From Eubacterium sp. (GTDB lineage Bacteria; Bacillota; Clostridia; Lachnospirales; Lachnospiraceae): a DNA stretch of 47,465 nucleotides. The DNA lies in the NCBI GenBank assembly GCA_017634555.1, contig JAGBNF010000017.1, forward strand, positions 1 to 47,465, given 5' to 3'. Positions 27,230 through 30,700 of this stretch are shown here, piece after piece. Position numbers and translations under genes: made by a program. Positions within the stretch are counted from its first letter, which is position 1, and each line of letters begins with the position of its first letter. A model generated the notes under the pieces. The model was not told the origin of the DNA and ran no database searches. It worked only from the letters and a program-made list of their open reading frames with translations.

Positions 27230-27240
27230 TGAAAATTTGC

Positions 27241-27268
27241 TTGCATTTTTTTAAATAAGTTATATACT
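27241..27268 (+). promoter_or_regulatory. purF promoter
   Basis: TTGCAT (27241-27246), 16-base spacer, TATACT (27263-27268). It gives a leader of about 290 bases before purF. An inverted repeat (GTCA..GGCAT/ATGCC..TGAC, about 27276-27303) lies at the 5' end of the transcript. Confidence 0.65.
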
Positions 27269-27326
27269 GATTTTGTCAGTGGCATTATTATGCCCCTATG
27301 ACGTTAAATGAATAAATAACTTTTTG

Positions 27327-27370
27327 GAAGCAAGGGCGCTTCGGGATTGATTCTCGAAGTGCCCTTTTTT
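27327..27370 (+). promoter_or_regulatory. Hexaloop hairpin overlapping a terminator in the purF leader (ANTAR-target-like)
   Basis: GAAGC (27327-27331) and GCTTC (27338-27342) enclose the six-base loop AAGGGC, with A at loop position 1 and G at position 4 as in ANTAR-protein targets. The same bases form the 5' arm of a terminator (27334-27345 with 27353-27364, then TTTTTT). The two structures are mutually exclusive. Equivalent overlaps occur before gltB and amt. A clear second hexaloop hairpin just upstream is not evident. Confidence 0.5.
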
Positions 27371-27542
27371 GTGCGAAGTCGAGGCAAGGTCACATATGCG
27401 AAGCAGATGTGACGATTATACATACGCTCGCGCGTTTACGCGCAAGAGCGTAATGTAATAAGCGTCATATAGCTGCTGAAAGCAGCTATGTAACTTTGCC
27501 GAGACCGTATCATCATGCAAATGATGAATTCATTTGCATGAT
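27371..27542 (+). ncRNA. Structured leader element (four-way junction plus hairpin), copy 1, before purF
   Basis: The closing helix P1 is GGCAAGGT (27383-27390) with ACTTTGCC (27493-27500). Inside are hairpin A (27391-27411, GAA loop), long hairpin B (27412-27465) and hairpin C (27466-27492). A further perfect 13-bp hairpin D follows (27512-27524 with 27530-27542). A second copy at 29342-29518 keeps the same helices with changed pairs, while the flanks (GAGGCAAGG, CATACGCTC, CTTTGCCGAGACCG) stay the same. This suggests selection for RNA structure. I do not recognise the class. Confidence 0.65.
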
Positions 27543-27565
27543 AACCTTTAGAAAGGAATTTACCC

Positions 27566-29050
27566 ATGAATTCAAAGAAGATGGAAGTAATCAGTAACGG
27601 AGTTATGGCAGATGACAAACTCCATGAGGAATGTGGAGTGTTCGGAGTATATGCACCGGCGGGAGCTGATGTTGCGGGAGAGATATACTACGGACTTGTT
27701 GCACTTCAGCATCGAGGACAGGAGGCAGCGGGAATTGCTGTTTCAGATACTGAAGGACCTATGGGAAATTTGAGGATGAAGAAGCAGCAGGGACTTGTAA
27801 GCGAGATATTTCATCCGGATGATCTGGCTAAGCTGACAGGTAATATAGGTGTCGGTCACGTCAGATATTCGACTACGGGTGGAAGCACCGAAGCAAATGC
27901 TCAGCCTATCGCTATGAACTATATAAAGGGAAGTCTGGCTGTAGTACATAACGGAAACATAGTAAATGCACCGGAACTTAAAGAGCAGCAGATGTACAGA
28001 GGACTTGCTCACTATACAACATCAGATTCAGAGGTTCTCGCATACGAGATCATTGGAGAGAGAGTAAAGGCTGCAACAATTGAAGAAGCAATAAAGAATG
28101 CAGCATGTAAGCTGAAGGGCGGATATGCTGTTGTTGTAATGAGCCCGAGAAAGCTTGTAGGTATCAGGGATCCATTTGGAATCAAGCCGCTTATACTCGG
28201 CCGTAAATTATCAGCAGGTGCAGCTGCTGAGGAAAGTGAAACAAATGAAGCATCACAGACTATGGAAGGTGTGGGAAGATATACATATATCCTTGCATCG
28301 GAAAGCGCAGCAATTACATCAGTAGGCGGAGAGGTATTAAGAGATATCGAGCCGGGAGAAATTATTTCAATCACAAAGGAAGGTGTGACATCTGACAGAG
28401 GACTCTGCCAGGAGAAGAGAGCACACTGTATATTCGAATACATTTATTTTGCAAGAAACGATTCCGTAATGGACGGAATTGAGATACATGATGCGAGAGT
28501 GGCAGCAGGTCGTGCACTTGCAAGAAAATCACGTGTGGATGCAGATATCGTAGTAGGAGTTCCGGATTCGGGACTTGCAGCTGCTGAGGGTTATTCTCTT
28601 GAGTCAGGTATACCGTTTGCTTTCGCATTTCATAAGAACAGCTATATCGGAAGAAGCTTTATCAAGCCGACGGATGAAGAGAGACGTACTGCAGTTCATA
28701 TGAAGCTGAGTGTTCTTAACAACGTAGTCAGGGATAAGAGGATCGTTATTATTGATGATTCTATAGTCCGCGGTACTACTATGAAGCAGCTTATAGAAAT
28801 GCTGAGAAAGGCCGGAGCTAAGGAAGTGCATGTAAGGATAAGTTCACCTCCATTCCTTTATCCATGCTATTACGGAACTGATGTTCCAACTGCAAAGCAG
28901 CTTATAGCATCACATCATTCCAGTGAAGAGGTATGTAAAAATGTGGGAGCGGATTCACTTGAATATCTGAGTGTATCTGACTTTACATCTATGGTAGGTG
29001 AGTTGCCGCTTTGTACCGCATGCTTTACGAATGATTATCCGGTGTTATAG
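27566..29050 (+). CDS. purF: Amidophosphoribosyltransferase, first step of purine synthesis
   Basis: A 494-residue PurF that converts PRPP and glutamine to phosphoribosylamine. The glutaminase domain begins after a short propeptide; the nucleophile is the Cys in HEECGVFGVYAP (~23), so maturation would remove about 22 residues as in B. subtilis. The PRPP motif is VIIDDSIVRGTT (~395). Cysteines in RAHCIFEY, PPFLYPCYYG and CTACFTNDY fit the Fe-S cluster of B. subtilis-type PurF. An insertion of about 20 residues (LSAGAAAEESETNEASQTME) in the glutaminase domain is unusual. It stands alone, without other pur genes, behind a long regulated leader. Confidence 0.96.
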   Translation: MNSKKMEVISNGVMADDKLHEECGVFGVYAPAGADVAGEIYYGLVALQHRGQEAAGIAVSDTEGPMGNLRMKKQQGLVSEIFHPDDLAKLTGNIGVGHVRYSTTGGSTEANAQPIAMNYIKGSLAVVHNGNIVNAPELKEQQMYRGLAHYTTSDSEVLAYEIIGERVKAATIEEAIKNAACKLKGGYAVVVMSPRKLVGIRDPFGIKPLILGRKLSAGAAAEESETNEASQTMEGVGRYTYILASESAAITSVGGEVLRDIEPGEIISITKEGVTSDRGLCQEKRAHCIFEYIYFARNDSVMDGIEIHDARVAAGRALARKSRVDADIVVGVPDSGLAAAEGYSLESGIPFAFAFHKNSYIGRSFIKPTDEERRTAVHMKLSVLNNVVRDKRIVIIDDSIVRGTTMKQLIEMLRKAGAKEVHVRISSPPFLYPCYYGTDVPTAKQLIASHHSSEEVCKNVGADSLEYLSVSDFTSMVGELPLCTACFTNDYPVL

Positions 29051-29084
29051 GAAAAAATAAAAAAATTCGTCAGCTATAAAAATT

Positions 29085-29118
29085 ACCTATTGACATAGTA
29101 GGTGAAAGGTGATATAAC
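29085..29118 (+). promoter_or_regulatory. mccBA promoter with palindrome over the -35 box
   Basis: TTGACA (29090-29095), 17-base spacer, TATAAC (29113-29118). The palindrome ACCTA-N9-TAGGT (29085-29103) covers the -35 box and could bind a repressor. It drives the cysteine-rich leader peptide and the mccBA genes. Confidence 0.7.
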
Positions 29119-29159
29119 AATCACATATTAAATCAGTAGGTAAATAGGAGACGGACGAA

Positions 29160-29264
29160 ATGTTTAATCAGATGATGTCAAACAGAATATGTTGTTGCTG
29201 TTGCTGTAATAAGAATAACAGCATTCTTCGCATGTTCTGTGAGAGTACTTCGGGATTAACGTAA
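29160..29264 (+). CDS. Leader peptide with six consecutive cysteine codons
   Basis: A 34-residue ORF (ATG 29160, stop 29262-29264) preceded by TAGGAGACGG. It encodes MFNQMMSNRI followed by CCCCCC (codons TGT TGT TGC TGT TGC TGT, 29190-29207), then NKNNSILRMFC. It sits between a strong promoter and a terminator, upstream of cysteine-biosynthesis genes. This is the layout of an amino-acid attenuator: ribosome stalling on Cys codons when cysteinyl-tRNA is scarce would alter folding of the downstream RNA. Confidence 0.85.
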   Translation: MFNQMMSNRICCCCCCNKNNSILRMFCESTSGLT

Positions 29265-29341
29265 ATTTTGTGTACATATTTACCAGGTATAATATTATGA
29301 TCAACAGGCGAGGAATGAGTTAATCATCCCTCGCTATTTTT
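29222..29341 (+). terminator. Cysteine attenuator: terminator with alternative antiterminator
   Basis: The terminator arms GCGAGGAATGA (29308-29318) and TCATCCCTCGC (29324-29334, one mismatch) are followed by TATTTTTG. The leader-peptide segment CATTCTTCGC (29222-29231) pairs over 10 bp, with one G-U, with the terminator's 5' arm (29308-29317), so an antiterminator can form. A consensus-like TATAAT (29288-29293) without a good -35 box also lies here and could give a shorter transcript. Confidence 0.7.
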
Positions 29342-29518
29342 GTGCGTTAGTTGAGGCAAGGTTGCATATGCGGAGCATATGCAACGATTAATACATACGC
29401 TCGCACATTTATGTGCATGAGCGTTTGGTATTAATCGTTGCATATCTGCTGGAAGCAGATATGCAACTTTGCCGAGACCGCATCATCGAGTGATTGAAGA
29501 ATTCAATTACCCGATGTG
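29342..29518 (+). ncRNA. Structured leader element (four-way junction plus hairpin), copy 2, before mccB
   Basis: The layout matches copy 1. P1 is 29355-29362 with 29466-29473. Hairpin A is 29363-29383 (9 bp, GGA loop), hairpin B is 29384-29438 (10-bp base ACGATTAATA/TATTAATCGT) and hairpin C is 29439-29465 (11 bp). A downstream hairpin D spans about 29485-29518. Compared with copy 1, arms A, B and C differ in sequence but remain paired. As in copy 1, the element starts right after a terminator tail (TTTTTGTGCG) and ends a few bases before the gene's ribosome binding site. Confidence 0.65.
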
Positions 29519-29539
29519 ATTTATGAAAGGAGACAAATT

Positions 29540-30700
29540 ATGAGCATTAACATTAATTCATTACTTATTCACGGCGGTATCGACGGAGACGAAACAACAG
29601 GAGCAGTTAACGTTCCTGTATATCAGACTTCAACATACAAGCAGGACGGTCTCGGTGAGAACAGAGGCTGGGAATATTCGAGAACAGGAAACCCAACAAG
29701 AGCTGCACTTGAAAAGCTGGTAGCCGATCTTGAGCAGGGAGAATACGGAATGGCATTTGCATCCGGACTTGCTGCAATCTCAACAGTACTTTCACTGTTT
29801 ACGTCAGGAGACAGACTTATCATTTCAGATAACATTTACGGCGGAACCTTCAGAGTTCTGGATAATGTATTTAAGCATTTCGGTCTCAACTTTACCATAG
29901 TTGATACATCTAATATTGAAGAAGTAAGACGTGCACTTGAGGATAAGGAAGCTGATAAGGACGGCGAAGTAAAGGCTGTATATATCGAGAGTCCTGCAAA
30001 TCCGCTTCTTTCCGTTACAGATATTGAGGCAGTATCAAAGCTCGCAAAGGAGTACGGAAAGCTTACCATCGTTGATAATACATTTCTTACACCGTATCTT
30101 CAGAGACCGCTTACACTTGGTGCAGATATAGTTGTACACAGCGGAACAAAGTATCTCGGTGGACACAGTGATACAGTATCCGGTTTTGTTATCGTAAAGG
30201 ATAAGGAGCTGGCTGACAGACTGTACTATCTTCAGAATGCAATCGGAGGAATCCTTGCACCTTGGGACAGCTTCCTCATGATCAGAGGCATCAAGACACT
30301 TGGTGTCAGAATGGACAGACATGTTGAGAATGCAAAGAAGATCGCAGAGTGGCTTGAGAACAGCGGTTATGTAGAGAAGGTTTATTATCCGGGACTTAAG
30401 TCTGATCCGGGTTATGAAATCCAGAAGAAGCAGGCAGATGGTCCGGGAGCTATGATCTCCTTTACTCTTAGAAAGGAATATGATTATAAGAAATTCTTTA
30501 AGTCACTGAAGCTTGTAACACTTGCAGAGAGTCTCGGCGGAGTGGAGTCACTGGTATGCCATCCTGCAACAATGACACATGCAGCAATTCCGAAGGATAT
30601 CAGAGAGGCAGTAGGAATCACAGATGAACTTATCCGTCTTTCAGTCGGAATCGAAGATGCTGATGATATTATCAGGGATTTAGAGCAGGCTATACGATAG
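29540..30700 (+). CDS. mccB: Cys/Met-metabolism PLP enzyme, probable cystathionine gamma-lyase (MccB-like)
   Basis: The protein is 386 residues from ATG 29540, which follows GAAAGGAG (29525-29532); an in-frame GTG at 29516 has no such site. Family marks are WEYSRTGNPTRAALEKLV, the active-site Tyr in DNIYGGTFRVL and the PLP lysine in HSGTKYLGGHSD (~200). Sequence alone does not separate cystathionine gamma-synthase (MetB), gamma-lyase (MccB) or O-acetylhomoserine lyase. The next gene resembles MccA, and the leader responds to Cys codons, so the reverse transsulfuration enzyme MccB is favoured. Confidence 0.82.
   Translation: MSININSLLIHGGIDGDETTGAVNVPVYQTSTYKQDGLGENRGWEYSRTGNPTRAALEKLVADLEQGEYGMAFASGLAAISTVLSLFTSGDRLIISDNIYGGTFRVLDNVFKHFGLNFTIVDTSNIEEVRRALEDKEADKDGEVKAVYIESPANPLLSVTDIEAVSKLAKEYGKLTIVDNTFLTPYLQRPLTLGADIVVHSGTKYLGGHSDTVSGFVIVKDKELADRLYYLQNAIGGILAPWDSFLMIRGIKTLGVRMDRHVENAKKIAEWLENSGYVEKVYYPGLKSDPGYEIQKKQADGPGAMISFTLRKEYDYKKFFKSLKLVTLAESLGGVESLVCHPATMTHAAIPKDIREAVGITDELIRLSVGIEDADDIIRDLEQAIR

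Follow-up and report, generated by a model that had tools for sequence, protein, structure and literature searches.

Two copies of a structured, palindromic element lie in the window analyzed here, a stretch of 47,465 nucleotides from Eubacterium sp. (family Lachnospiraceae; assembly GCA_017634555.1, contig JAGBNF010000017.1), whose genome (G000) is available as an incomplete assembly of 2.33 Mb. The initial annotation had placed one copy ahead of purF and one ahead of mccB, and it described shared joints, a closing helix that encloses hairpins A, B and C, and a trailing hairpin D, all of which are present at the positions listed below. Locus names other than purF, gene-family and Rfam hits were assigned by eye. 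The name purF is confirmed by NCBIfam; for the second gene, the family (cystathionine gamma-lyase/synthase) is supported, and the exact enzyme is not settled. The features of the region are as follows.

27327..27342, + strand: possible anti-terminator hairpin GAAGC/GCTTC, read from the sequence; it overlaps the terminator of the purF leader in its 5' arm
27334..27370, + strand: purF leader terminator hairpin and T-run; insertion context, outside the element (G006 and other relatives have this attenuator but lack the element)
27371..27542, + strand: element copy 1 (outer stem, hairpins A, B and C, trailing hairpin D); covariance-model match at 27368-27513, 143.9 bits
27378..27390, + strand: copy 1, inner closing stem, 5' side, which includes the tandem G-A step (GTC-GA-GGCAAGGT)
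27392..27410, + strand: copy 1, hairpin A, 27392-27399 paired with 27403-27410, GAA loop
27411..27465, + strand: copy 1, hairpin B, long, TTTA loop
27466..27492, + strand: copy 1, hairpin C
27493..27510, + strand: copy 1, 3' side of the closing stem and outer stem (ACTTTGCC-GA-GAC-CGTAT)
27512..27542, + strand: copy 1, hairpin D, a perfect palindrome (RNA and single-stranded DNA folding)
27566..29050, + strand: purF (amidophosphoribosyltransferase), behind copy 1; NCBIfam TIGR01134 above its cut-off
29309..29341, + strand: leader terminator hairpin and T-run ahead of copy 2 (insertion context)
29342..29516 (end 29516/29518), + strand: element copy 2 (outer stem, hairpins A, B, C and D); covariance-model match at 29339-29486, 162.2 bits
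29364..29382, + strand: copy 2, hairpin A, GGA loop
29384..29438, + strand: copy 2, hairpin B
29439..29465, + strand: copy 2, hairpin C
29484..29516, + strand: copy 2, hairpin D
29540..30700, + strand: cystathionine gamma-lyase/synthase family gene, behind copy 2; strong NCBIfam matches, below the curated cut-offs among the 25 shown

As first described, both copies start right behind the T-run of a terminator (27365-27370 for copy 1 and 29337-29341 for copy 2) and end shortly upstream of an apparent ribosome site. In each, the outer stem pairs GTGCG, from the last T of the terminator, with CGCAT or CGTAT, and the inner closing stem pairs GTT-GA-GGC... with GCC-GA-GAC, including a tandem G-A step. 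The annotation knew of no riboswitch class with such a layout, and no Rfam family reached its threshold in the window; low-E microRNA matches were far under their gathering scores and were taken as matches to any long A+U-rich hairpin.

Folding gave z scores against shuffled sequences of −9.1 (copy 1) and −9.9 (copy 2) as RNA with flanks and of −8.9 and −11.0, respectively, as single-stranded DNA. The arms of hairpins A and C are complementary to each other as well as to themselves, so that each copy can fold as a four-way junction or as a long rod, and the two folds fit the covariation about equally: in eight own-genome copies, 91.4% and 89.4% of cells were paired for the four-way junction and the rod, against 81.2% and 77.6% after shuffling. 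The RNA minimum is the rod in both window copies and varies among eight other copies, whereas folding as single-stranded DNA favors the four-way junction in both and gives A, B and C each its own arm in all 10 copies tried. The ability to fold as a rod is a correction to the initial annotation. The claim that arms change sequence while staying paired extends well beyond the window. An alignment of 66 matches (E up to 1e-13, from 65 of 94 sources) had 93.0% of cells paired, compared to 69.7% when shuffled and 24-50% with the register slid, and 50 of 57 pairs had changes on both sides. The alignment leans toward the model's pairs because it was fitted to the model; pairing is far above chance in both the shuffle and the register-slide comparison, and covariation is strong.

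The element is dispersed. BLASTN and a covariance model built from eight copies (R1) found 13 copies in the own genome, including a half element (L030) and a short form (L031), and end fragments also occur there at C1, C27 and C6. A search of related genomes, as proposed at the outset, showed that 31 of the 61 genus genomes contain an R1 match (E of 0.001 or better), with weak or short matches in G052, G046 and G002. Match rows, including reverse-strand shadows, numbered 16 in G000, 11 in G006 and 10 in G049, with none in 30 genomes; once shadows are discounted, copy number ranges from 0 to 13 per genome. R1 matched in 2 of 298 genera of a family sample. A wider model from 66 copies (R2, E up to 1e-6) matched 18 genomes of 397, belonging to 16 of the 334 genera sampled; both counts include the own genus. 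The best match was read in each of the 16 genomes outside the genus, along with one further G022 copy: some clearly belong to the repeat, sharing its start and end motifs, and the rest are no more than palindromes of a similar kind. The exact end pattern was found in 20 stretches of named genomes, mostly from unrelated groups, and most of these are taken as chance; of four put to the model (L081, L082, L090 and L096), only L096, from an uncultured Lachnospiraceae bacterium, matched (E up to 0.001). The same pattern had 0 matches in viral contigs, and a phage or virus origin was rejected on this basis.

Two side observations concern the form of the element. Its 3' half, including hairpin D, is partly duplicated in tandem at L042, L040, L048 and L196. 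Palindromes edged by GAGTGATAACGAGCC and GGCGACAACA, or near variants, recur in other genera of the family (L080, L294 and L296) and have a GAGCC/GGCGA foot in common with the element; they and the element perhaps form a wider superfamily.

Position relative to terminators was assessed on 92 model matches. Of 126 match rows, 93 were kept after 29 reverse-strand shadows, second matches in L042, L164 and L049, and L096 were dropped, and one further row (L063, a second match) was then removed. By a strict rule, a T-run lies immediately 5' of 72 of the 92, totals that include seven doubtful rows (L060 and L182 with a T-run; L080, L187, L189, L194 and L195 without). Among the other 20, six stand behind a T-box terminator with a short T-run (L050, L059, L069, L077 and L168 by Rfam; L197 by flank only), three follow tRNA genes (L029, L174 and, by eye, L193), and two (L032 and L198) are at the end of a gene read as groEL. 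A known sensor was detected directly upstream in 18 of 69 loci searched with Rfam: 12 T-boxes (L013, L016, L040, L048, L050, L056, L059, L069, L077, L168, L172 and L188), 10 of them below the Rfam threshold, and riboswitches of the SAM (L011, L066 and L169), ZTP (L012), TPP (L030) and cobalamin (L178) classes. At L016, no more than an end fragment of the element is present.

The neighboring genes also set the copies apart from ordinary intergenic terminators. The downstream gene is co-directional for 61 of 66 copies (61 of 65 without L060, one of the five exceptions) versus 78 of 166 ordinary terminators (46 of 92 in 447 kb of G000 and 32 of 74 in ∼400 kb of G006), and leader-like sites, with the downstream gene co-directional and the upstream gene opposed or >120 bases away, account for 47 of 63 copies versus 30 of the 166. 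Baseline terminators were collected with one script, 4 and 5 rows with element-like tails being removed from the two genomes. The Fisher values for these comparisons (1.4e-11 and 2.1e-15) are not true probabilities, because the copies are related and come from 32 genomes and the baseline comes from two. The genes that follow are unrelated, one copy lies ahead of a tRNA cluster, and the gap between copy and next gene varies widely.

Copies behind a T-run rarely carry a T-tract of their own: arm B has none in 48 of 51, compared to five of six copies with one at tRNA or gene ends that lack a preceding terminator (L029, L174, L193, L032 and L046; the sixth, L198, has none by the script pattern). 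Copies thus seem to come in two kinds, those behind a terminator and those that are terminators themselves; the five, which have a T-tract after hairpin B, may serve in this way. In other genera, three of the 15 best matches read are behind leader terminators, judged by eye to be of the T-box (L285 and L291) or purF (L287) type, and most of the 15 have no leader terminator in front.

Leaders of the same gene differ among relatives in the presence of the element. Those of pheS were taken from the 30 best of 57 genomes with a PheS match, and those of purF from the 30 best of 54, where 29 of 30 fetched loci were printable, one with only 16 bases. All 30 pheS leaders have a T-box motif by pattern and a terminator by eye. 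Full copies follow in G000 and G045, a truncated copy in G006 and a remnant-like start in G059, while in G060 and G021 the ribosome site lies almost immediately behind the T-run, without an element. Six pheS leaders (L140, L141, L147, L148, L153 and L154) have other, unrelated-looking palindromes between the T-box terminator and the ribosome site. The purF attenuator GAAGCAAAGGCGCTTCGAG...CTCGAAGTGCC (27327-27370 in the window; L102-L130), in which the anti-terminator overlaps the terminator, is common to many genomes of the genus, and the GAAGC/GCTTC motif likewise precedes purF in many of them. Behind this attenuator are full copies in G000, G066 and G048 and pieces or odd inserts in G008, G076 and G042; no element follows it in G006, which is the closest relative judged by PurF, or in G052, G051, G015, G058, G007, G065, G045, G060 and G057, although G051 has a different palindrome. 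The same attenuator type was seen in another genus at L287, and similar terminators stand ahead of glnN and gltB (genes by eye).

Several copies group by genome rather than by locus. A tree built from 69 copies joins the pheS and recD2-like copies of G000 (100/99), the G045 pheS copy lying elsewhere, and puts the purF and mccB copies of G000 together in a weak group of five rows (88/84). Far from the latter, the G066 and G048 purF copies share a clade with glnN and gltB copies.

The types of base pair indicate the level at which pairing is maintained (counts are given as Watson-Crick/G-U/A-C/other). Hairpin D, taken as the best hairpin within 60 bases past the element end, lies outside the covariance model and so was not selected by it; 47 distinct hairpins, a few of which may not be D, gave 508/3/1/35, most of the 35 being by eye the tandem G-A step. 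In the model alignment, the tip helix of B gave 322/2/4/2 and the entire B 1327/32/15/64. An ungapped count of the B tip in 46 hairpins disagrees (631/20/32/33), and the model-alignment count is preferred because the ungapped count loses register at a bulge. For terminators beside the copies, the script used for D gave 721/39/4/11 (60 distinct hairpins). The tips alternate between G-C and A-T nearly without G-U, in contrast to the adjacent terminators, which work as RNA. This difference speaks for maintenance of tip pairing on the DNA itself, through selection on a folded single strand or hairpin-templated repair, for example.

The pair in the window looks less like a new metabolite sensor than like members of a dispersed mobile repeat of a kind not described before. 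We consider it probable that the element is a nonautonomous dispersed palindromic repeat of ∼145 bases plus hairpin D, resembling miniature inverted-repeat transposable elements (MITEs), which settles in one orientation at the T-runs of intrinsic terminators, for the most part leader terminators, and joins the read-through leader. Many copies lie in varied places, behind terminators and ahead of co-directional genes, and are present or absent in relatives; several resemble another copy of their own genome more closely; and the palindromes covary with tips nearly free of G-U. Of the two possibilities raised initially, copy number, varied gene context, presence and absence, and the within-genome resemblance of several copies bear out the palindromic mobile unit that settles behind terminators.

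The mechanism that we envisage has the following steps. (i) The terminator hairpin with its T-run would be the recognized target. (ii) The element would insert on the 3' side of the terminator in a single orientation. (iii) It would move as DNA, probably via a folded single strand (four-way junction plus hairpin), and an enzyme encoded elsewhere would act in trans. (iv) Once inserted, it would become part of the 5' leader of read-through transcripts. (v) A DNA-level process would keep the tip hairpins perfect, and leader copies would persist as harmless or mildly useful, e.g., by spacing the attenuator from the ribosome site. Position, orientation, dispersal, and presence or absence in relatives are observed; movement as folded DNA, the terminator as target and the enzyme in trans are inferred. 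A bolder version is offered as a tentative proposal: this would be a new mobile element whose folded single DNA strand (a stem with three hairpins, forming a four-way junction) is aimed at the terminator hairpin and T-run of attenuated leaders, whose fast-changing tips are kept nearly perfectly paired at the DNA level, and through which attenuator and gene come to be separated by a standard structured module throughout a bacterial family.

A number of results weigh against mobility as the whole explanation. First, filled and empty leaders come from different species, so that gain and loss are not separable at every site. No target-site duplication was seen by eye in the filled and empty pheS and purF leaders, whose species are too diverged for exact borders. 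Hits at random places with flanking duplications had been named as the mark of a mobile repeat; hits are indeed scattered, yet not at random, and the duplications were not seen. At least six apparent same-locus pairs from different genomes cluster in the 69-copy tree (L032/L198, L029/L174, L059/L077, L052/L073, L067/L068 and L170/L173, locus by flanks), and some copies have therefore been inherited.

Second, no transposition was seen and no autonomous relative was found. Counted by hand, Y1 transposases do not track the element (they occur in 17 of 31 genomes that have it and 19 of 30 that do not; 36 of 61 in total); no copy was present at 13 Y1 loci scanned of 30 fetched, including L253 in G000, other transposase families not having been searched. 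Group II introns, also counted by hand, do not track it either (11 of 31 with and 8 of 30 without; 19 of 61 genomes), and none was found in G000.

Third, the base pair counts are not uniform. Ordinary terminators, counted with the same script and read on both strands where two-way, gave 1377/56/33/16 (121 terminators), a G-U share below that of the terminators beside copies. Basal stems, C and A tolerate G-U (G-U versus A-C of 54/3 in P1, 24/4 in P1b, 30/9 in P2, 54/20 in C and 16/9 in A), and whole rods of 69 copies contain 111 G-U, 47 A-C and 92 other pairs (14 low-scoring left out). The excess of G-U over A-C in basal stems and C, together with the whole-rod counts, fits some RNA-level constraint on the base.

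Finally, a plain mobile repeat leaves the bias toward leaders and co-directional genes unexplained: either the target search favors leaders or selection keeps copies there. Selection of this kind would make the element a domesticated post-attenuator module, and the most serious rival explanation is built on it, namely, a leader RNA with a general job, whose fold after read-through shields the mRNA or insulates the ribosome site, mobility having spread the repeat and selection retaining it. A general role in the read-through leader may exist because both biases are strong, and the division between copies with and without a T-tract, the inheritance of some same-locus copies, the G-U in basal stems and the three other-genus matches behind T-box or purF-type leaders are all consistent with one. 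However, close relatives with the same leader differ in presence, distances to the next gene are widely spread, G-U is avoided in the tips, and most of the 15 other-genus matches are not behind a leader terminator; the copy ahead of a tRNA cluster means that translation is not the sole target. We regard a leader RNA as an unlikely alternative, though one with a real claim to consideration.

Intron-related explanations are improbable. Group II introns begin GUGYG, which the GTGCG start of the element resembles. The element might be a group IIC intron that has degenerated, or a small RNA that relies on the protein of such an intron to move it in trans. Its start directly at a T-run is in keeping with this, such introns recognizing a DNA stem-loop next to the insertion site, according to the available part of the source (PMC10190682). 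In contrast, no domain V (Intron_gpII) match was obtained in 27240-29560 with E up to 10, GTGCG pairs in the outer stem and changes along with its partner, and the distribution of introns shows no link with the element.

Comparably little probability attaches to a small RNA or terminator family in its own right, akin to Clostridiales-1 (RF01699), the nearest Rfam entry taken seriously. Matches recur: eight copies in other genomes score 30.8 to 34.7 bits and the own-genome tRNA copy scores 25.5 bits, and hairpin D and the loop of B contain similar hairpin modules. All matches are below the threshold of 48 bits, however, in more than one register and some with large parts of the model skipped, and the copies are located within leaders, where no separate promoter for them was identified; kinship may be limited to the hairpin modules. 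A metabolite-sensing riboswitch or gene-specific cis-regulator of purine and sulfur genes, the other possibility of the initial annotation, is the least probable of all and was rejected, for although the joints are conserved, covariation is strong and the window copies precede purF and a sulfur amino-acid gene, the genes downstream are unrelated rather than of one pathway and include tRNAs, the leaders are varied and already have a known sensor upstream in 18 of 69 loci, most leader copies have no terminator of their own, the same leaders occur in relatives without the element, and no Rfam riboswitch reached threshold in the window.

If the element is a mobile repeat of leader terminators, then the terminators of leader attenuators in this family are followed by a recurrent insert, one that could pass for a regulatory RNA in motif surveys; the risk lies in its strong covariation, though the tips are nearly without G-U. 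It would also be a system in which to study how terminators are located by a repeat and whether a repeat can be retained as a standard part of attenuated leaders.

Among the work searched, in the parts of it that were accessible, no description of such a post-terminator palindromic repeat was found, but several known systems share some of its properties. Clostridiales-1 RNA, which appears in a table of PMC2864571, is reported from Clostridiales and has similar hairpin modules; the modules are arranged differently in the element, and matches are sub-threshold only. Group IIC introns also enter next to a DNA stem-loop, as noted above, whereas the element has no domain V match and no coding capacity and is only ∼170 bases long.

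Repetitive extragenic palindromic (REP) sequences and their RAYT transposases are closer in form, both REPs and the element being extragenic palindromes with a conserved foot and variable arms. REPs flank a RAYT gene, whereas no copy of the element does so at L253 or at the 12 other Y1 loci scanned. The own genome has a RAYT-like Y1 gene at L253 (G000:C16:50788-51114), which by eye lies between GTGCCAGGCACC-type repeats separate from the element.

MITEs and the BOX, RUP, Correia and bcr repeats are, like the element, short, noncoding, palindromic and present in many intergenic copies; small bacterial repeats are often within transcripts, and bcr10 and bcr18 have conserved secondary structure (PMC10969869 and PMC3446304, in the portions available). 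The 13 own-genome copies with palindromic arms agree with the MITE pattern of multiple short noncoding copies with inverted repeats. The element differs in its location at terminator T-runs, mostly in leaders, in its three-arm fold and in its hypervariable, near-perfect tips; no target duplication was seen and no parent transposon was found in a search of Y1 only. Mobile attenuators, as presented in the accessible part of Naville and Gautheret 2010 (PMC2965389), are the systems that also combine mobility with a link to the leader terminators of unrelated genes. They carry the terminator themselves, whereas the element follows the terminator of the host leader, be it that of a T-box or of a riboswitch.

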